NCBI RefSeq assembly: GCF_014206975.1
Contig: NZ_JACHOU010000001.1
Span: 682,001-746,000, forward strand
Direction of reading: 5' to 3'
Length of the DNA: 64,000 nt
Source of the DNA: Aminobacter aganoensis
GTDB taxonomy: Bacteria > Pseudomonadota > Alphaproteobacteria > Rhizobiales > Rhizobiaceae
The notes under the pieces are model-generated. The model was not told where the DNA came from. It saw nothing but the letters and a program-made list of their open reading frames with translations, and searched no databases. Shown piece by piece: positions 4,821 through 14,070 of the stretch. Both the position numbers and the translations under genes were made by a program. Position 1 is the first letter of the stretch, and each line of letters opens with the position of its first letter.

Positions 4821-5920
4821 TAGTTGCCTCCCGCCGCCGGAGCGCGCTTCTGCAGTTCGGGCAATGGCAGATAGGGCACCACGCCCTGTCCGTTGCCCTG
4901 CTCGACGATCACCTTGCCGGAGCCCTGGAGCACCTTTTCCATCGTTTCGAGATAGAGGCGCTTGCGGGTCACGTCGGGCGCCTTGGCATATTCGTCATAG
5001 ACCGAGATGAAGCGCTGGGCCTCACCTTCGGCTTCCTGCACGACACGGTTCTTGTAGGCGGCGGCGTCTTCGCGGACTTGCGCCGCCTCGCCTCGCGCCT
5101 GGCCGAGCTTCTGGTTCGAATACTGGTTGGATTCCTCGACGAAGCGGTCTTCGTCCTGTTCGGCACGCTGCACCTCGTCGAATGCATCGGCCACTTCGCG
5201 CGGCGGCGCAGCATCCTCGATCGAGATCGCGTTGACGGCGAGGCCCGCGCCATACTGGTCGAGCGTCGCCTGGATGATGTCGCGAACGCCGGCGGCAATG
5301 CCCTGGCGGTCGTCGCGGAAGATGTCCTGAGCCGGACGGCGCCCGACCACTTCGCGCATCGCGCTTTCGGCAATCTGGCGAACCATCACGTCTGGTTCGG
5401 AAACCTTGAACAGATAGGCTTGCGGGTCGGAGACCTGGTAGGCAACGGAGAACTTCACGTCGACGATGTTCTGGTCCCCCGAAAGCATCAGGCCGGACGA
5501 GGTGCTGCCGCGTACTTCGCCGATATTGACCAGCTTTTCAGCCGTGTTGACCTTCTCGACGGTTTCGATCGGCCACCAATGGAAATGCAGGCCCGGCTGC
5601 GACAGTTCCTGCTTCGGCTTGCCGAAGCGCAGTTCGACGGCCAATTCGTCAGGCTGGACGGTGTAGATCGACTGGAATGCCCACAGCGCCAGCAAGCCCG
5701 CGCCAATCAGGCCGAACACCATGGCGCTCGAACCGCCGCCGCCCGGAAGCGCACGCTTCAGCCGGTCCTGCCCCTTGCGGATGATGTCTTCGAGATCGGG
5801 AGGCGAGCCCTGCGGTCCACCTGGCCGCGGTCCCTGCCCCCAGGGGCCACCGCCGCCGCCGCCACCGCTGCCGCCGCCCCATGGGCCGCCGCCGCCTCCA
5901 TTTTGATTGTTCCAGGGCAT
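4820..5920 (-). CDS. hflK: HflK protease modulator
   Basis: FtsH-protease regulator paired with HflC. The 366-residue protein starts with a very Gly-rich cytosolic segment (residues 1-62), then a membrane helix (about 66-84) and an SPFH domain starting YTVQPDELAVELRFG. A Glu/Gln/Arg-rich coiled coil covers about 225-310. A good ribosome site (AAAGGA, six bases before ATG) supports the start. The Gly-rich N-terminus is typical of HflK. Confidence 0.95.
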   Translation of the reverse strand: MPWNNQNGGGGGPWGGGSGGGGGGGPWGQGPRPGGPQGSPPDLEDIIRKGQDRLKRALPGGGGSSAMVFGLIGAGLLALWAFQSIYTVQPDELAVELRFGKPKQELSQPGLHFHWWPIETVEKVNTAEKLVNIGEVRGSTSSGLMLSGDQNIVDVKFSVAYQVSDPQAYLFKVSEPDVMVRQIAESAMREVVGRRPAQDIFRDDRQGIAAGVRDIIQATLDQYGAGLAVNAISIEDAAPPREVADAFDEVQRAEQDEDRFVEESNQYSNQKLGQARGEAAQVREDAAAYKNRVVQEAEGEAQRFISVYDEYAKAPDVTRKRLYLETMEKVLQGSGKVIVEQGNGQGVVPYLPLPELQKRAPAAGGN

Positions 5921-6069
5921 GAAAGTCCTTTCGACTACGTATTATTGGCGGCCGCGCCTGAAACGGCCGGATATTTCCTACCACCATCTATAGGCATGCG
6001 ATCAAGCGCTTTCAACGCAATGGGCCGTAAGCGCTTCTGATTTCACTACATATGTATGAAACCACGACC

Positions 6070-6588
6070 TCAATGCACCTCGTGGCGCTTCTCGTAAACT
6101 GTATAGCGTGTCGCATGGCTGTCTTTTTCGCCGGCGGGCAATTCCTCCGAACGGACAACCGTCCAGACCGCCGGGTCGATCGTCGGGAAGCGTGTGTCGC
6201 CGTCGGGGCTGGCCAGCACATGCGTGACATGCAGCCGGTCGGCCAGCGGAAGCGCCTGGCGATAGATCTCGCCGCCACCGATCACGCAGATTTCGGTGAC
6301 GCCCGGCTTCAGGCGTCCCTTCGCGGTGGCCAGTGTGATCGCGTCTTCGACCGATTGTACCGTCTCGGCGCCCTCGACCCGGTAGGCCGGATCGCGGCTG
6401 ACGACGATGTTGAGCCGGCCCGGCAAAGGCTTGCCGATGCTCTCATAGGTTTTTCGCCCCATGATGATCGGTTTGCCCATCGTGTCGGCCTTGAAGCGCT
6501 TGAGATCGCTCGACAGCTTCCACGGCAGGCCGTTGTCGCGCCCGATCACCCCGTTTTCGGCAATCGCCACATAGATCGCTACGTCCAT
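6070..6588 (-). CDS. folA: dihydrofolate reductase
   Basis: Reduces dihydrofolate to tetrahydrofolate with NADPH, completing the cycle driven by thymidylate synthase. The 172-residue form begins MDVAIYVAIAENGVIG; catalytic Asp28 lies in LSSDLKRFK, with NADPH-site motifs MGRKTYESIG and VIGGGEIY. A longer upstream frame adds only non-conserved Arg-rich sequence, so the ATG at 6586-6588 is preferred. thyA, often adjacent in related genomes, is 6.6 kb away across the sensor-kinase block. Confidence 0.95.
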   Translation of the reverse strand: MDVAIYVAIAENGVIGRDNGLPWKLSSDLKRFKADTMGKPIIMGRKTYESIGKPLPGRLNIVVSRDPAYRVEGAETVQSVEDAITLATAKGRLKPGVTEICVIGGGEIYRQALPLADRLHVTHVLASPDGDTRFPTIDPAVWTVVRSEELPAGEKDSHATRYTVYEKRHEVH

Positions 6589-6810: not shown

Positions 6811-7521
6811 CTAGGAGTACAGGTAACCCACGCCGCGTATCGTCTTGATCACTTCCGGCTTGGAGGGATCGTTCTCGATCTTCTTTCGCAACCGGGAGAT
6901 CCGGATGTCGATGCTGCGGTCGAAGGGATCCCAGCCGCGATCGTGGGCGAGTTCCAGCAACTGGTCGCGATTGAGCGTCTTTCCGCGATTGTCGGCGAAG
7001 ACTTTCAGCAGCCGGAACTCCATCGGCGTGATGGCGATGTCGGCGCCCTCGGGATCGGACATCTTGTGGGTTTCCAGATCGAGCCGGCAATTGCCGAACC
7101 TGACGACATGCGGGCCCAGATGGTCGCCCAGGCCAATCGCCTGCTCGTGCCCCGATGTGCGCCGCAGCACGGCCTTGACGCGCGCAAGCAGTTCCCTGAG
7201 GTCGACGGGCTTGGCGATGTAGTCATCCGCGCCGACCTCCAGGCCGACCACCCGGTCGATGATCTCAGCCGAGCCGGTCAGCATGATGATGGCGACCTTC
7301 GAATGCTCGCGCATGTAGCGGGCCAATGACAGGCCGTCTTCGCCCGGCATCCGGATGTCGAGGATGACGACGTCGATGGGCTGGGTGTCGACGAGCTCGC
7401 GCAGCGCCGGCCCGGCGTCGGCGGTCGTCACGGCGTAGCCATTGCGTTCCAGATACTCCGCGACCGTGTCGCGTAAATCCGGCTCGTCGTCGCAGACAAC
7501 GATGTGCGGGTTAGCGGTCAA
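6811..7521 (-). CDS. OmpR-family response regulator
   Basis: Transcription factor of a two-component system, 236 residues from a TTG start (7519-7521) preceded by GAGGA; a GTG at 7588-7590 would extend it into the kinase gene but lacks a ribosome site. The receiver domain has acidic pocket Asp11/Asp12, phospho-acceptor Asp55 (VVILDIRMPG), Thr82 and Lys104. The C-terminal winged helix includes TPMEFRLLKVFADN and ends IKTIRGVGYLYS, classic for OmpR/PhoB. It lies just downstream of a hybrid histidine kinase and probably receives its phosphate. Predicted to bind the repeated two-box motif in this block (inference). Confidence 0.93.
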   Translation of the reverse strand: MTANPHIVVCDDEPDLRDTVAEYLERNGYAVTTADAGPALRELVDTQPIDVVILDIRMPGEDGLSLARYMREHSKVAIIMLTGSAEIIDRVVGLEVGADDYIAKPVDLRELLARVKAVLRRTSGHEQAIGLGDHLGPHVVRFGNCRLDLETHKMSDPEGADIAITPMEFRLLKVFADNRGKTLNRDQLLELAHDRGWDPFDRSIDIRISRLRKKIENDPSKPEVIKTIRGVGYLYS

Positions 7522-7579
7522 CGATTCCTCATCTCTGCTAAAAATAGCCTTCTTCGCAAGGGCAGGCAAACGCTGGCTT

Positions 7580-10537
7580 TCAGGCGTCACGGTTGACCAG
7601 CCGGGAGACGAAGGTCCGGAGTTCGAACGGCTTGACGGGCTTTTCCAGGTAGGGCCGTTTCGTCGCGCGCAAGAACACCTGAGCGTCCGGACTGATCGTG
7701 TCTCCGGTCAGGAAAGCCAGTCTGTCAGCCTCCGCCGGATGGAAGTCGGAGACATGATTGTAGAACCTGCGGCCATCCATGTCGGGCATCTTCAGATCGC
7801 TAAGAATAACATCGAATGTCCGCGATTTCAGCTGTTTCAACGCCTCCTTGCCGGATCCGGCAACGATGACGGTGAACCCATCCTGGGTCAGGATCTCGGC
7901 AATCAGTTCGCGGACGTCCTTTTCATCGTCCACCACCAGGCAGACGCGTCCCGTCGATTTCGGCAGTTCGATGGCCTCGGCCTCGGACCGCTCGGCAAGC
8001 CGGTCGGACGCGGGCAGCGAGACCACGAAGGTCGACCCACCACCCTCCGCCGTCTCCACCTGGATGGTGCCCTGGTGGGATTGGATGATGCGATGGCAGA
8101 AAGACAGTCCGATCCCGGTACCGGCCCCGACCTCCTTGGTGGTGAAGAACGGTTCGAAGATGCGCGGCAGGATCTCGCTCGGGATCCCGGGACCGGTGTC
8201 CGCCACCTTGACGAGAATGTTGCCGCTCTCCGGCTGCAGTTCGGTCGACACCATGATCTGCCTTTGCCCCTCCCAGCCATGCACCGCATGCTCGGCATTG
8301 ACCAAGAGGTTGATCAGCACCTGGGTCAGTTGGTCGGGGTCGGCCCAAATCGCCGGCAGGTCCGGCGCGCGCCGGACCGAAAGCGATATGTCGGACGACT
8401 TGATCGAATAGCCCACGACCTCGACCGCTGCCGTAACGATGTCGTCGATGACGACGTTCGAGGTTCTGGTCGGCTGCTGCCTCGCCATCGCCAGGAACGT
8501 CCTGACGATGCGCGCGCAGCGCTCCGCGGCCCTGCTGATCTTGTCGGCCCGTTCGACCGTCTTGGGATCGGACGCCGTCTCCTTCAGAGTAAGGGACATG
8601 CCGAGGACCACCGACAGCGGGTTGTTCAATTCGTGCGCCACGCCGGCCAGCAAGCCGCCGAGCGCGGAAAGCTTCTCGTTCTGGTGCAGGGTCTCGCGCT
8701 GGCGCTCCAGCTGTTGCTGCATCTCGATACGGTCGGAAAGGTCATAGGTGTGGGAAACAATGACCTTGTCGCCGTGAAAATCGATCAGCCTGGCCGAGAG
8801 CGAGCACCAGCACGCGTCTCCGTTCTTGCGCTTGAGCTGCGTTTCGAAGTCATCGACCTCTCCCATCAGCAGCAGCCGTTCGACGAACTGCTTGCGATGC
8901 GCAGGATGGAGGTAGCTGTCGAAGGCGTTGTCGACGTCGCCGAGCAACTCATCCGAGGCCGGGCTCCGGTAAAGCAGCTTTCCATCGTCAGCGCGGGTCA
9001 TCTGGATGCTGGCCGGGCAGGCCTCCAGCACCCTGCGAACCAGTTCATCGGCCTCCTTCGCAGCCAGTTCTGCGCGCTTGCGTTCCGTGATGTCGACGCG
9101 CGTGACCACGAAGCCGCCCTCGCGGGTCGGACAGTTCGAAACGAAGAACCAGCCACCATCGGTATGCTGGAACTCCTGCTGCCGAAACTCGCGCCGATCC
9201 TTGGCCCGCTCGACCAGCCAATCGTCGATCCTGTCCTGTGAAACCGGAAACTGGTTGCGCTGTGCGGTGACGCGCAGGAAGTCGAACCAGTTGACACCGG
9301 GAACCAGCACATCCGCGCTGAGGGCGTGCATCTTCCGGTACTGGCTGTTGGCCAGGACAAGGCGGTCGTCCTTGTCATAGAGCGCAAAACCTTCGGCAAG
9401 GGATTCGATGGCATCGATCAGGCGCTCGCTCGCCTGTCGGGTCTGGGTCTGGGCTTCGATGATGTCGGTGATATTGGACGCGTTGGAAACGATCACCGGC
9501 CGCCCCTGGAAATCGATCAGCCGCGCCGAGATCGAGCCCCAGAAGACATTGTCGTTGCTATCGTACTGCCGCACCCGAAAATCATCGATGCAGCCCTTGT
9601 CGAGAAGGACGCCGACCAGCGTCTTGCGATCGTCGGGATTGACGTAGTAGCCGCCGATCTGGCCGCGGTCGCCGTAAAGTTCCCTGCTGGCAGGGTTGCG
9701 GTAGAGCGTTTCGCCCTCGATCGTCGACATCCGCGTCGGCACCGGGCAGGCGTCGAGCACCTTTTGCATAAGTGCTGTGGCTTCATGCTTGATGGCTTCC
9801 GCCTTCTTGCGCTCTGTGATGTCGAGAACGCCGATGACCAGCGACGGCCGGCCGCGATAGTGGCTGCGGCGGCAATTCGTCGAACACCAGACGCTGGAGC
9901 CATTCGGCCGCCTGAGCTCGATTTCGTGATCGCGCAGGATGTCGTCATGGCCGACGCGTTCCGTGATCTTCTCGAAATCGTCGGGGTCGGCGAAATGATC
10001 GATGATGAACTGCGGCTCGTTCGGCCGCCACTTGCGCCCCAGCAGGCGCGAACCGTCGAGGCTCTCGTAGACGATCTGCTTGCTTTCCTCGTCGACGACC
10101 CAGACCGGAAGCGGATGGCTGTCGGTGATGCAGCGAAAGATTTCGGCACTGTCGAGATGTGCGATCTGGATACGCTTCATCTCGGTGATGTCGGTGCTGA
10201 TGAGAGCGACGCCGCCATTGGGCCTGGGATGGCTGGTCAGCAGCCGCCAGCCGCCATCGACCGTCTGCGCTTCGAACGGGGGCACGTTGTCCTGGCGCCA
10301 GCGCGTCGCGACGTGGCGCGCAAATTCGTCCGTCGGCTCGACCTCGATGCCGTCGAAGCTCTTCAGATTCCGGAGAACCTTGCCGACGACGCCACCGACA
10401 TCGGCCGGCCCGTCCTCTCCAGCAATGCTGGCGCCGCTGTCGCCGTAGATTGCGGCATTGGCGTCCTCGAGCACGTCGTGGATATCGAACAGCGCGTAGC
10501 CTGTTCGCGCATCCGCAACTCGGCATTCAGCTTGCAT
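7580..10537 (-). CDS. soluble hybrid histidine kinase with multiple PAS domains
   Basis: A 985-residue sensor kinase without obvious membrane segments or signal peptide, hence probably cytosolic. Successive PAS or PAS-like units occupy about 10-120, 133-245, 258-362, 372-490 and 500-603; several end in the DITE(R/M)K linker. The HisKA domain carries His635 ([11 protein letters not shown]), followed by an HATPase with N-box Asn747, G1 box DTGPG (780-784) and G2 box GTGIGLS. A C-terminal receiver (866-983) has Asp870/871, phospho-acceptor Asp914, Thr944 and Lys966, so it is hybrid. GAGGAG seven bases before ATG supports the start. The signal is unknown; PAS cofactors cannot be assigned from sequence. 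Confidence 0.93.
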
Positions 10538-10610
10538 AGGTCGTCTCCTCGACGGAAGCCCGGCATCGTCTTCACGGCGGCGTGATCGCCGATCGCTGAA
10601 TAGTCGCGCT

Positions 10611-10650
10611 TTGTTTCGACTTGAGGTCGAACCAAACCGATTTGTTTCAG
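10611..10650 (-). promoter_or_regulatory. two-box motif upstream of the hybrid kinase gene
   Basis: Read leftward, box A is CTGAAACAAATCGG (10650-10637) and a second box TCGAAACAAA begins at 10619, 31 bases on. Box A starts 113 bases before the kinase ATG, the same distance as the copy before the DUF1127 gene. Similarity to the three rightward copies is visible; its role as an activator or promoter site is inference. Confidence 0.55.
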
Positions 10651-10674
10651 TCTTTCCGGCATCCGGGCCGCCTG

Positions 10675-10714
10675 GGTGAACAAACGAAACTTTTTTCCCG
10701 CGACGCCGAGAACG
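10675..10714 (+). promoter_or_regulatory. two-box motif upstream of the small exported protein gene
   Basis: GTGAACAAACGAAAC (10676-10690) matches box A of the other copies with one base missing, and CCGAGAACG at 10706 occupies the box B position. CTGAAACACG at 10717 is a further partial copy. The distance to the ATG at 10873 is longer (about 197 bases) than for the other three. It faces the kinase-gene copy in the same 335-bp divergent intergenic region (10538-10872). Confidence 0.5.
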
Positions 10715-10872
10715 AACTGAAACACGCGCGCGCTACGCTCAATTGCATCGACTTCGCTGGAAACGGTCTGCGCAGCGGACCCGACAGCCTACCAAAAAAC
10801 CGGCAGGCTGTTGATGCCGTTGGCCGCAGGGCTCGAACGAGGTCAATCGACCATCCCAAGAGGAGAATTGAG

Positions 10873-11208
10873 ATGAGACGGACCCTGATGGCGTTGTCCG
10901 CCATTGTTTCGGCATGCGGCGCGGCAGATGCCACCGACCTCGCATCGATCATGCAGTTTCCAAGCTTCCAGGGCATCGCATCGTATCAGCCCCACCAAGC
11001 GCCACGCTCGAAAGGCACCGAACCGAAGTCCGCGGCAACGGCGTCGCTCGGAGCCCCGTTCGTGCCAGGGCGATTGCGCTACATGTTCAAGGGCGCGCCG
11101 ATGCGCTCCACCATTCATGGCGCGCCCGGTCTTTCTCCCGAGATGATGGCACCCCGCGGCGCCAATCGGCTCGTTCCGTGCCCGGCCATGCACCCGCCTG
11201 GCGATTGA
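10873..11208 (+). CDS. small exported hypothetical protein (possible lipoprotein)
   Basis: A 111-residue protein that I cannot assign to a family. The N-terminus has two Arg, a hydrophobic core and VSAC ending at Cys15, which resembles a lipobox; an ordinary signal-peptidase cut after ADA is the alternative. The mature part is rich in Pro, Met and basic residues and contains three GAP-starting segments (GAPFVPG, GAPMRST, GAPGLSP). A strong ribosome site (AGGAGA) precedes the ATG. It is divergent from the hybrid kinase gene and shares its promoter motif, so it is a likely target of the two-component system. Confidence 0.6.
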   Translation: MRRTLMALSAIVSACGAADATDLASIMQFPSFQGIASYQPHQAPRSKGTEPKSAATASLGAPFVPGRLRYMFKGAPMRSTIHGAPGLSPEMMAPRGANRLVPCPAMHPPGD

Positions 11209-11242
11209 GCGGCAAGCCACGGCGCCTCTGGCAATGGCCAGA

Positions 11243-11282
11243 TTGAAACAAACGAAACACTTCCATCGCCTCCCTGAAAACG
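11243..11282 (+). promoter_or_regulatory. two-box motif upstream of the DUF1127 gene
   Basis: Box A TTGAAACAAACGAAACACTT starts at 11243 and box B CTGAAAACG at 11274, 31 bases later. The ATG of the DUF1127 gene is 113 bases from box A. GAAACA occurs twice in box A with a nine-base period, suggesting a direct repeat for a dimeric regulator. Further CTGAAA-type repeats follow at 11285. The downstream leader also resembles that of the DUF1344 gene (GTCGCCG...TGGCGTC). Confidence 0.6.
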
Positions 11283-11355
11283 AGCTGAAATGAAAATGAA
11301 CTATTCCTGAAGTGTCGCCGGTCCCTGGCGTCGCCAATTGACGGAGTCCTCCCAA

Positions 11356-11592
11356 ATGTCTGCCCTTGCCATTCGGTCCCCCGCTGTTGCTTTCGTCCTC
11401 TCCCAGGGGGCAAGAATTCGCCTCGTCATCGAGGCATATCTCGCCCGCCGGGCCCATCACCGCGCCGTTCGCAACCTGTCCGAGCTGGACGACTACCTGC
11501 TCAAGGACATTGGTGTCGCGCGCTGCGAGATCGACTCGCTTGCCTACGGTTCGTCGGAACGGAAGCGTGGCCATGAACACGACATGGGCTGA
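11356..11592 (+). CDS. DUF1127 (YjiS-like) domain protein
   Basis: A 78-residue protein with a C-terminal DUF1127 core, recognisable from R.VRNLSELDDYLLKDIGVAR followed by a basic tail. DUF1127 proteins are short, Arg-rich and common in alphaproteobacteria, and several have been linked to RNA-related regulation or stress, but no role can be assigned here. The ATG has GGAG about ten bases upstream; a TTG at 11338 is less likely. It overlaps the following hydrolase-like gene by 20 bases, indicating an operon. Confidence 0.8.
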   Translation: MSALAIRSPAVAFVLSQGARIRLVIEAYLARRAHHRAVRNLSELDDYLLKDIGVARCEIDSLAYGSSERKRGHEHDMG

Positions 11593-12421
11593 GTTGAGCA
11601 GGTCGACCTTCACCGAGGTCGAGTTTCGGCTGCCCGTACTTGCGTTGCATGGCGCAGCCAGCAGCAGCACGCAATGGCATGGCCTGTCGGACTATCTCCG
11701 GGGCAGCTACCATGTCGTTGCGCCCGATCTGTCCGCCTTTGCCAGTTCCGATTCCGCAAAAAGCGCGATCGAGGCGATGGTCGACGAGCCCGTGCATCTC
11801 GTCGGCCATCTGCACGGCGCTGCGCTCGCGCTCGAGATCGCCCTGGAGCGGCCCGAGCTGGTGCGCAGCCTGACGCTGATCGAACCGACGGCTTTTCACC
11901 TGCTGCGGGACGGCGCCCCGTCCGACCGGGCACTGTTCGCCGAGCTTGTCGGGCTGGCCAACAGGATGAAAATTGCCGTCGAGGCGCATGACCCGGCAGG
12001 CGGCATGAGCGCCTATGTCGACTTCTGGTACGGCCGCGGCGCCTGGCAGCGAACCAGCCCGGGCCTGCGGCAGATGCTCGCCTCCCATCTGCCCCGGACT
12101 GCCGCGGGTCTGGCCGCTTCCCTTGTCGCCTCCTGGCCGGCCGACGGCTGTGCCCGGATCCGATGCCCGACGCTCGTGGCGATGGCGCTGGAAAGCCCGG
12201 CGGTCAGCCTGCGCGTAACCGAGATCGTCGCCGAAACGATCCCCGGCGCGCGCCTTGCCATGATTGCGGATGCCGGACACATGGCTCCGCTGACCGATCC
12301 GCACATCGTCGACCCCATGATCGGCGCGCATCTGAAGGCGGTGGACCGCCCAAGGCGCAAGCGCCGGCCATGGCACAAAGCCAGCCCGCGCAGCCCCGCG
12401 ACCTGCCTGCCGGCGATCTGA
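11573..12421 (+). CDS. alpha/beta-hydrolase fold protein lacking the nucleophile serine
   Basis: A 282-residue alpha/beta-hydrolase homologue: oxyanion-side LHGAASSSTQW (25-35), strand/PDL segment VVAPDLSAF, elbow VHLVGHLHGAA, and C-terminal DAGHMAPL with His236. In the elbow the usual G-x-S-x-G serine is replaced by Leu80 (codon CTG), so canonical hydrolysis is not expected. It could be a binding or signalling protein, as known for some dead members of the fold. The C-terminus is a basic RPRRKRRP tail. It overlaps the DUF1127 gene by 20 bases and should be co-expressed with it. Confidence 0.75.
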   Translation: MNTTWAELSRSTFTEVEFRLPVLALHGAASSSTQWHGLSDYLRGSYHVVAPDLSAFASSDSAKSAIEAMVDEPVHLVGHLHGAALALEIALERPELVRSLTLIEPTAFHLLRDGAPSDRALFAELVGLANRMKIAVEAHDPAGGMSAYVDFWYGRGAWQRTSPGLRQMLASHLPRTAAGLAASLVASWPADGCARIRCPTLVAMALESPAVSLRVTEIVAETIPGARLAMIADAGHMAPLTDPHIVDPMIGAHLKAVDRPRRKRRPWHKASPRSPATCLPAI

Positions 12422-12444
12422 CTTTTCCCGCCTTCGACACGTTC

Positions 12445-12483
12445 AATCTCCACCTGTTGCCTGCACGGCGACAGGTGGAGATT
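12445..12483 (+). terminator. long perfect hairpin after the hydrolase-like gene
   Basis: Arms AATCTCCACCTGT (12445-12457) and ACAGGTGGAGATT (12471-12483) pair perfectly, and GCC/GGC extend the stem across a T-G wobble to a five-base loop. It lies 24 bases after the stop codon. No clear T run follows, so it may be a terminator, an mRNA-stabilising hairpin or a regulator site. The rest of the 391-base gap (12422-12812) holds the two-box motif and leader of the next gene. Confidence 0.55.
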
Positions 12484-12701
12484 TGCGTTTCGGCACCGCC
12501 AGCCTGCCCCAAGGAGCAACCGGCTTGATCGCCTGTCGCCCCTACCCGTCGAAGCCGGCGCCGCTGCCGAAGATTCCCTGCTGTTTCCCTGTCGCTCGCC
12601 CTGCCTGCTGCTCCAGCCGCCACCAGGCGACATCTTTCGCGGCCATGCCAGGCAGCCGCTGTGGCGGTCGATCCCTCCATATTTCCGCACCCGACGCAGA
12701 T

Positions 12702-12741
12702 CTGAAACAAACGAAACACTTCTCCCCGGCGACAGAAAACG
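12702..12741 (+). promoter_or_regulatory. two-box motif upstream of the DUF1344 gene
   Basis: Box A CTGAAACAAACGAAACACTT starts at 12702 and box B CAGAAAACG at 12733, 31 bases later. The ATG at 12813 is 111 bases from box A. Nineteen of the 20 box A bases match the copy before the DUF1127 gene. Confidence 0.6.
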
Positions 12742-12812
12742 CCCCGCAACAGGAGACCGCTAGAAATGGGACGTCGCCGACATTGGCGTCACTCCCAAGA
12801 AAGGAATACTCG

Positions 12813-13049
12813 ATGAAGACTCTGGTTCTCGCCGCCGCCTCACTCGCCATGATGTCCGGCGTCGCACTCGCCTCCTCGCAGAACGGCATGATCGCCAAGT
12901 TCAATTCGTCCGCTCGCGTCATCACTCTCGAGAGCGGCAAGAGCTTCACCATCCCGCGTGACGTTGCCCTTCCGCCCGTCCAGGTCGGCGAGCAGGTCTC
13001 GATCCAGCTCAACGACGAAGGCGACAAGGTTACCACCGTCCTGCGTTAA
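12813..13049 (+). CDS. exported DUF1344 family protein
   Basis: A 78-residue protein with a signal peptide (MKTLVLAAASLAMMSGVALA) and a compact mature domain resembling DUF1344: GMIAKFNSSARVITLESGKSF, then a Pro-rich segment, VGEQVSIQLN and a C-terminal KVTTVL strand. The pattern suggests a small beta-rich periplasmic domain. AAAGGA precedes the ATG by eight bases. It carries the same promoter motif as the kinase and DUF1127 genes. Function is unknown for the family. Confidence 0.8.
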   Translation: MKTLVLAAASLAMMSGVALASSQNGMIAKFNSSARVITLESGKSFTIPRDVALPPVQVGEQVSIQLNDEGDKVTTVLR

Positions 13050-13090
13050 TTCGAATCTCGACTGCCGCAGCGGCCGGACCAGCCGCCACA

Positions 13091-13123
13091 AAAGCCATGG
13101 ACGCTGACGCGCTCCATGGCTTT
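13091..13123 (+). terminator. terminator after the DUF1344 gene
   Basis: Arms AAAGCCATGGA (13091-13101) and TCCATGGCTTT (13113-13123) are perfectly complementary around an 11-base loop and are followed by CTTGTTC. It also lies 51 bases from the 3' end of the convergent thyA gene and could act in both directions. Confidence 0.75.
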
Positions 13124-13173
13124 CTTGTTCAGGCCGACAATGTCGCCGCGCACATGTCCGGTTTGGGCTGCCG

Positions 13174-14070
13174 TCAGACGGCCACGTCCGCAAGGATCGG
13201 TGGATAAGGATCGTAACCGCTCACCTCGAAGTCTTCGATCCTGTAGCCGTCGATGCTGTCCGGCTTCCGGAGCAACTTCAGGGTTGGGAACGGCCTCGGC
13301 TCCCTCGTCATCTGTTCGCGGGCCTGGTCGAGGTGGTTGAGGTAGAGGTGGATATCACCGCCCATCCAGACGAGGTCGCCGAGTTGCAGCCCCACCTGCT
13401 GCGCAACCATCGCCTGCAATGCCGCTCCACCGATGCAATTGAACGGCGCGCCGAGCAGCAGGTCGCAGGACCTCTGGAAGATCAGCATGTTCAGCCGCCC
13501 GGCGCTGGTGACATGGAACTGATACACCATGTGGCAGGGCGGCAGCGCCATCTGCCCGATCTCGGGCACGTTCCATCCATGGAAGAGCATCCGCCGGCTC
13601 GAGGGGTTCGTCTTCAGCGTCTCGATGACACTGGCGATCTGGTCGTGCTCGACCCCGTTGGCGTCCTGCCAGCGGCGCCACTGCTTGCCGTAGACCGGGC
13701 CGAGCTCACCCCATTTGAGCGCAAACGCCTGGTCTTCGACGATCCGCTGTTCGAAATCCTGCTGGGAAATGCTCTCGCCCGTCTCCTTCCGGTACTTGGC
13801 CAGCGGCCAGTCCGTCCAGATGCGTACCTTCTCCTGCAGCAGTGGCCGGATGTTGGTTTCGCCAGTCAGGAACCAGAGCATCTCCTTCACCGCCAGCTTC
13901 CAGTAGACCTTCTTGGTCGTGAGGATCGGCACAGTGCCATCGGACAGGTCGAAGCGCAGCATCGCGCCGAATGTCGACAAGGTGCCAACGCCCGTGCGGT
14001 CGATCCGCTTGTCCCCCTTTTCGAGGATGTGGGACATCAGGTCGAGATACTGGAATTCCGGATGGCGCAA
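13174..14070 (-). CDS. thyA: thymidylate synthase ThyA
   Basis: Methylates dUMP to dTMP with methylenetetrahydrofolate, producing dihydrofolate for FolA. At 298 residues it is longer than the 264-residue E. coli enzyme, with an insertion around residues 90-120 as in some longer ThyA forms. Catalytic Cys179 lies in MALPPCHMVYQF; the phosphate-binding RSCDLLLGAPFN segment and dUMP-contacting HLYLNHLDQ are present. The C-terminus ends ILADVAV. AAAGGAG lies about 13 bases before the ATG. Confidence 0.96.
   Translation of the reverse strand: MRHPEFQYLDLMSHILEKGDKRIDRTGVGTLSTFGAMLRFDLSDGTVPILTTKKVYWKLAVKEMLWFLTGETNIRPLLQEKVRIWTDWPLAKYRKETGESISQQDFEQRIVEDQAFALKWGELGPVYGKQWRRWQDANGVEHDQIASVIETLKTNPSSRRMLFHGWNVPEIGQMALPPCHMVYQFHVTSAGRLNMLIFQRSCDLLLGAPFNCIGGAALQAMVAQQVGLQLGDLVWMGGDIHLYLNHLDQAREQMTREPRPFPTLKLLRKPDSIDGYRIEDFEVSGYDPYPPILADVAV

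Follow-up and report, generated by a model that had tools for sequence, protein, structure and literature searches.

The hFixL-FxkR system of Rhizobium consists of a PAS hybrid kinase with a C-terminal receiver and an OmpR-type regulator, and has a small regulon with a direct-repeat operator about 62 bp before the start; the accessible parts of two reports place this operator, the K-box, at -62 of fixK (PMC7888657, PMC4999443). Alpha/beta hydrolases are encoded beside PAS signalling proteins, including Gram-negative hybrid kinases, in what the accessible part of PMC3183031 describes as the RsbQ-PAS module, and DUF1127 proteins bind the sensor kinase PhoR in Agrobacterium and E. coli (PMC12501420, accessible part). 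Here we compare these systems with a block of genes in a stretch of 64,000 nucleotides from Aminobacter aganoensis (contig NZ_JACHOU010000001.1, positions 682,001 to 746,000; hereafter the window). The block encodes an OmpR/PhoB-type response regulator, a hybrid histidine kinase, an exported protein that we name ExpA, a DUF1127 protein, an alpha/beta-hydrolase-like protein that has lost its nucleophile and an exported DUF1344-like protein. From sequence comparisons we consider it probable that kinase and regulator control four transcription units via a repeat operator and that the hydrolase may have turned into a non-catalytic partner. A two-component system with a compact regulon is of a known kind; in the literature searched, in which subscription journals were mostly not covered, no description was found of this system, nor of its operator code, its regulator clade or a pseudoenzyme within its regulon.

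The block shares with hFixL-FxkR the PAS hybrid kinase with its C-terminal receiver, the OmpR-type regulator, the small regulon and a predicted direct-repeat operator about 62 bp before the start. The boxes differ, however: that of hFixL-FxkR is GTTACA-N4-GTTACA with a 10-bp period, whereas the operator described here has a 9-bp period, and there is no fixK among its four predicted targets. A HDGY-like segment, which we take to be a sign of a FixL-type heme PAS, was not seen by eye in the kinase. As in RsbQ-RsbP, an alpha/beta hydrolase gene is found beside the gene of a PAS-containing signalling protein. But RsbQ needs the triad Ser96, Asp219 and His247, whereas the hydrolase of the window has lost the serine and its probable acid is a Glu after beta-6; the RsbP-PAS class is without DIT, whereas the first PAS here ends in STDITEM; and the hydrolase gene of the RsbQ-PAS module lies immediately upstream, while here it is divergent from the kinase gene and stands behind ExpA and DUF1127. 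Membership in the RsbQ-PAS module was rejected because of the Leu at the nucleophile position, the DIT in the first PAS and the gene order; no chain named RsbQ was among the best 60 of 64 solved-structure matches to a profile of the hydrolase family. As with PhoR, a DUF1127 protein is tied to a two-component system, with the difference that the DUF1127 gene here is a predicted target of the system.

All three plus-strand promoters of the block are built alike over 60 bp, with half-sites of the GAAAC type and a -10-like TA; the predicted operator sequence is TGAAACAAACGAAAC. Counted from the first T, the half-sites are of the GAAAC type at about 1 and 10, of the GAAAA type at 32 and of the TGAAAC type at 43, and the TA occupies 58-59; deviations are GCAAC at 43 in the DUF1344 promoter and a shortened first half-site in the ExpA promoter. 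If the TA is part of a -10 box, the first repeat pair would be centred near -62 and the second at the position of the -35 box, a layout that we infer to be that of an activator of the OmpR/PhoB kind. A scan of positions 10400-13200 for the sigma-70 consensus gave no match, which has little weight since shuffles give just 0.3.

For genome-wide searches, a sequence profile (model R1) was made from 28 sites, four of which have a spacing shorter by 1 bp; none is from the genome of the window (G000; 5.76 Mb in 52 contigs) or its near-twin G005. The training sites include those of Aminobacter G001, G002, G003, G008, G009 and L015 (the L015 hydrolase is identical to that of G004), leaving only G000, G005 and G007 wholly independent within the genus, and were also taken from G072, G093, G122, G170, G172, G074, L012 and L016 (the latter two apparently G154 and G183); matches in training genomes are thus partly by construction. 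R1 scans scored 150 first-look candidates per genome (of 930 in G000) and may miss weak sites. At E<=0.1, R1 reports four sites in G000: the three window promoters (E 3e-11, 4e-9 and 5e-7) and one further site on contig C5 (E 1e-14) that precedes the gene of an EncM-like FAD/BBE oxidase. The shared promoter motif proposed by a sequence-only reading of the window is thus recovered by an independent model, and its presence in all three window promoters is far beyond chance. Judged from these sites, the regulon of this genome probably is small and consists of four transcription units: ExpA, DUF1127-hydrolase, DUF1344-like and EncM-like FAD oxidase.

The same four gene classes recur across the genus. 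In ten Aminobacter genomes, 31 R1 matches at E<1e-4 precede genes for FAD oxidases (8), DUF1344 (8), ExpA (8, with the G003 gene classed by its position beside the kinase and not by its sequence) and DUF1127 (7); seven further matches are weaker (E 0.003 to 0.07). All eight FAD genes found in Aminobacter are preceded by a motif site, and ExpA homologues with similar N-terminus stand under the same kind of site. The fourth target has a homologue with 82% identity in G172, a genome of the family; this homologue carries FAD_binding_4 and BBE domains, and its best match among solved structures is EncM (best E 3e-96), which relates it to the EncM-type FAD oxygenases. One TGA lies in the part of G000 to which the FAD query aligned; a frame of 468 codons from a later start is open. 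In Mesorhizobium xinjiangense (L014), the FAD gene lies directly behind DUF1127 and hydrolase. Three Mesorhizobium genomes (L008, L010 and L011, near 5300-6200) have a second copy of the FAD-gene promoter before an apparently truncated FAD gene.

Distribution of the motif follows that of the regulator clade. Within Aminobacter, the exact motif is found in precisely those eight of ten genomes that have the kinase, and the other two lack both. In G006, a genome of 100% completeness that lacks the kinase, no site scores below E 0.05. Among 199 genomes of the family, 27 have a regulator of at least 50% identity and 172 do not (at most 13 regulator candidates were scored per genome). Two promoter forms of the motif (AAAC and AATT), separated from the other variants after the motif counts had been seen but both known earlier from kinase loci, occur in 16 of the 27 and in 8 of the 172 genomes (p 4e-11); counting all NN variants, the numbers are 19/27 and 23/172 (p 2e-9; both Fisher tests, ignoring shared ancestry). 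The 18 genomes with other NN variants only show no association (3/27 versus 15/172, p 0.45), and where the best regulator match is merely 45-49% identical, the motif is found in one of 25 genomes. Of the 16 genomes, 13 have a site no more than 10 kb from the regulator gene (16 of 26 sites). Among genomes chosen for an R1 search, 14 of 20 that have a close regulator gave a match at E<0.001, 8 of these 14 having supplied training sites; none of 10 without a close regulator did.

Regulator and operator are also found together outside the family. On the Novosphingobium plasmid pLA3, which encodes a regulator with 57% identity, a 16.7-kb stretch contains four sites that differ from TGAAACAATTGAAAC by at most one mismatch, while 200 mononucleotide shuffles gave 0 such sites; the four sites precede genes for OsmC, a NAD(P)/FAD oxidoreductase, a PALP-glutaredoxin enzyme and a hypothetical protein. 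A strong TGAAACAATTGAAAC form also precedes several kinase genes of Mesorhizobium and of more distant organisms. In a class-wide search, the exact AATT form was present in 16 of 385 genomes: within 1.5 kb of the motif, four of these have the regulator (57-58%) and/or the kinase (43-48%), and the other 12 have none of the queried proteins beside it, with no regulator search made over the same genomes. Neighbours of the distant kinases and regulators are a hydrolase that has kept its Ser, a truncated globin, a PAS-cyclase, OsmC, oxidoreductases and RTX-repeat proteins; because of the flavin, thiol and globin chemistry among them, a redox, oxygen or organic-molecule signal is suggested.

Several observations on these distant loci stand apart. 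A truncated globin gene followed by a cyclase gene recurs beside distant kinases (L133, 10214-11632; L215, 4716-6126), with a PAS domain found in the L133 cyclase; no paper on such a pair beside kinases of this kind was found in the literature searched. In three distant genomes the motif is found near genes for RTX-type repeat proteins (L140, 8108-10054; L138, 5826-6992 and 9339-10526; L141, 7408-9279), assigned by Pfam for L140 and L138 and by eye for L141; the regulator gene is less than 3 kb away in L140, and in the L138 genome it stands on the same contig at a distance of over 20 kb. The kinases of L013 and L017 (53-56%) have a strong site at their own promoter and a large pump-like gene (by eye) upstream.

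A number of observations weigh against control of the motif by this kinase and regulator. The two exact forms are absent from 11 of the 27 genomes with a close regulator and present in eight genomes without one; three genomes with a close regulator (G123, G135, G083) have no R1 match at E<=0.1 and three others (G171, G164, G088) only weak ones. G007, an assembly of 81% completeness, has the FAD gene with a variant site, yet no kinase was found, and the kinase loci L013 and L017 have no regulator on their contig. R1 reports just one of the four Novosphingobium sites, and Ruegeria (regulator 55% identical) has no convincing site in 16.7 kb, the best one having 2 mismatches and lying about 130 bp before the kinase gene. 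The Aminobacter kinase itself has only a degenerate site in its promoter. The recognition helix separates the clade poorly: 0-4 of 16 residues differ from that of the window within the clade and 5 in FxkR. The kinase has no Hpt domain at E<=0.01 (Pfam), which leaves the role of its receiver unclear. Binding, phosphotransfer and control of expression are all predictions, and feedback by the hydrolase or DUF1127 is proposed by analogy.

Some of these points would be explained if another regulator bound the motif and the kinase/regulator pair were no more than linked to it: the biochemical tie between pair and motif is a predicted one, eight family genomes have the exact motif without a close regulator, and G007 has the FAD gene and its site with no kinase found. 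We nevertheless think this unlikely, as the motif tracks this regulator clade over 199 genomes and not the weaker OmpR relatives, as sites flank the regulator gene in other orders amid different neighbours, and as the complete, kinase-less G006 is also without a good site. The fixed spacing between motif and -10-like TA in the aligned sites could instead mean that the motif is no operator but the part of a promoter that an alternative sigma factor recognises; however, half-sites repeated 9, 22 and 11 bp apart resemble operators of the OmpR/PhoB type, and only four sites in the genome together with the association with an OmpR-type regulator clade make a sigma factor very improbable. Hardly any probability at all is left for the block being the oxygen-sensing hFixL-FxkR system under another guise. 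The common layout of kinase, regulator, box about 62 bp upstream and small regulon (PMC7888657, PMC4999443, accessible parts) and the 43% identity of the regulator to FxkR of pRL9 speak for such a relationship. However, the regulators of Novosphingobium and Ruegeria (55-57%) are closer to that of the window than is the same-order FxkR, which sits on a very long branch; the kinase has just 26% identity to hFixL; and neither the box nor the targets, which include no fixK, correspond. Identity or orthology with hFixL-FxkR was rejected on the two identity values, the long branch of FxkR and the different box.

The remaining alternative concerns the hydrolase-like gene, which might simply be decaying behind DUF1127, with no role. 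Its product belongs to Abhydrolase_1 and has GHLHGA where the GxSxG elbow is expected. In a set of 17 relatives (19 were first aligned; two identical copies, L006 and L015, are omitted), the nucleophile position is occupied by Ser in six, Gly in eight, Leu in two (the window and G005) and Met in one; the His is kept in all 17 and the Glu after beta-6, which is likely the catalytic acid, in 16, with G008 as the exception. Loss of the catalytic Ser, the additional loss of the Glu in G008 and the fact that no hydrolase was found on 7 of 12 kinase loci are what decay would predict. On the other hand, the frame is open in 11 of 11 Ser-less copies, with the Glu kept in 10 and the His in all 11. The ratio of nonsynonymous to synonymous substitution (dN/dS) is 0.19-0.47 in all 55 pairs of Ser-less copies (NG86; partly saturated, so that ratios with dS above 1 are rough). 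The fold is also predicted to be kept: the model has a mean predicted local distance difference test score (pLDDT) of 81 and a predicted template-modelling score (pTM) of 0.79, most residues are modelled with confidence, the poor parts being 1-15 and 262-282, and its order of strands and helices fits the fold. Open frames, dN/dS ratios, kept His and Glu and predicted fold mark the protein, at the level of sequence, as a retained pseudoenzyme under purifying selection and not as a ruin, and we regard decay as doubtful. The hydrolase tree leaves unsettled whether the Ser was lost once or repeatedly, as the Ser-type protein of M. xinjiangense groups weakly with a Gly copy. The Ser-type relatives are probably active enzymes; because of this and of the conservation of the hydrolase-like protein, its reading as a ligand sensor, put forward from the sequence of the window, is at most plausible.

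If the kinase/regulator pair does control the four units, the system would work as follows. The cytosolic multi-PAS hybrid kinase would sense a small molecule or a redox state and phosphorylate the OmpR-type regulator encoded next to it, the pairing being inferred from adjacency. The phosphorylated regulator may then bind two pairs of direct repeats, TGAAAC/GAAAC near -62 and GAAAA/TGAAAC at the -35 position, and would activate, rather than repress, the ExpA, DUF1127-hydrolase, DUF1344-like and EncM-like FAD oxidase units. Regulator clade and operator would be old in Alphaproteobacteria, there in company with genes for a Ser hydrolase, a truncated globin, a PAS-cyclase, OsmC and a PALP-glutaredoxin enzyme. 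In Aminobacter and some Mesorhizobium, loss of the nucleophile would have made the hydrolase non-catalytic. It would now most likely serve as a ligand-binding subunit or as a partner, with feedback on the PAS kinase: its ligand may be a molecule that the ancestral protein processed, and it may tune the kinase either by itself or together with DUF1127, which may likewise feed back on the kinase. A more far-reaching version can be offered only tentatively: an undescribed PAS-kinase/OmpR family over several alphaproteobacterial orders, with its own TGAAAC/GAAAC operator code and a hydrolase as ancestral sensing partner, in which this hydrolase has been turned into a non-catalytic kinase receptor in Aminobacter and some Mesorhizobium without leaving the regulon, an enzyme-to-receptor transition.

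Such a compact regulon of four promoters and one regulator would place under one signal genes without known function, whose products include DUF1127 and DUF1344-like proteins and a serine-less hydrolase. The series of hydrolases with Ser, Gly, Leu or Met within one regulon makes it possible to study how enzymes turn into signalling subunits, and the operator permits searching for the regulon in other alphaproteobacteria by sequence only.

All genes named in the sequence-only reading were found in their places by Pfam/NCBIfam searches and sequence inspection (Table 1). Its proposal that kinase and regulator control a small local regulon agrees with the matching phyletic distribution, the association of clade and motif, the adjacent sites in other orders and the number of four sites, but the FAD oxidase target lies outside the block, so the regulon is not purely local. 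Co-occurrence of the five genes in related genomes, also expected from it, did not hold: the set is not fixed, and on 12 kinase loci DUF1127 is found 10 times, the hydrolase 5 times, ExpA 4 times and DUF1344 twice (both Aminobacter).

Table 1. Genes and predicted control elements of the block (positions within the window)
Feature	Position	Strand	Evidence and remarks
OmpR/PhoB-type response regulator (receiver and winged helix)	6811..7590	-	Pfam Response_reg 3.6e-30, Trans_reg_C 1.1e-22; exact start uncertain
Hybrid histidine kinase, 985 residues: five PAS repeats (by eye), HisKA, HATPase, C-terminal receiver	7580..10537	-	Pfam; orthologues in Aminobacter and Mesorhizobium
Degenerate, weak version of the operator upstream of the kinase	10600..10652	-	Scan of 8.2 kb: E 0.13 and 0.58; absent from the genome-wide matches at E<=0.1
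Predicted operator/promoter of ExpA	10679..10737	+	R1 model E 5.3e-7, whole genome
ExpA, exported, family unassigned, 111 amino acids	10873..11208	+	Signal peptide by eye
Predicted operator/promoter of DUF1127 and hydrolase-like gene	11244..11304	+	R1 model E 3.1e-11, whole genome
DUF1127 (PF06568) small protein, 78 amino acids	11356..11592	+	Pfam 38.6 bits, cut-off 23.3
Alpha/beta-hydrolase-like protein without nucleophile (Ser to Leu); Glu after beta-6 and His kept	11573..12421	+	Pfam; alignment of 17; predicted fold
Predicted operator/promoter of DUF1344-like gene	12703..12766	+	R1 model E 3.6e-9, whole genome
Exported DUF1344-like protein, 78 amino acids, signal peptide by eye	12813..13049	+	69-99% identical to seven other Aminobacter copies

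By its domains the regulator belongs to the OmpR/PhoB family, with Response_reg and Trans_reg_C both above the Pfam cut-off. Its GTG start at 7590 is doubtful: alignments begin at residue 4-15 with Aminobacter relatives and at residue 21-29 with those of Mesorhizobium, and the copy of Aminobacter sp. SS-2016 is annotated as 234 residues. The kinase, which shares 95% identity with its counterpart in A. niigataensis DSM 7050 and was judged soluble by eye, has Pfam matches to several PAS families (PAS_7 in two stretches, PAS_9 and PAS), HisKA, HATPase_c and Response_reg; the number of five PAS repeats was read by eye from five DIT-like ends in the sequence. ExpA has no Pfam or NCBIfam match at E<=0.01. 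The genes for DUF1127 and the hydrolase-like protein overlap by 20 bp. The DUF1344 identity of the last protein of the block can be upheld in part: its homologue in Aminobacter sp. SS-2016 is annotated as DUF1344, while its own match to DUF1344 (PF07076) has 17.2 bits and is under the curated Pfam cut-off of 23.1.

The window block is placed between thyA (13174-14070) and a dihydrofolate reductase gene. An insertion of the block between these two genes was considered and dropped: at E<=1e-100, thyA was found in just two of ten Aminobacter genomes. In Aminobacter sp. SS-2016, the block (DUF1344, hydrolase, DUF1127, ExpA-like, kinase and regulator) is located on the 519-kb plasmid pANY103a (L214), near cydAB.

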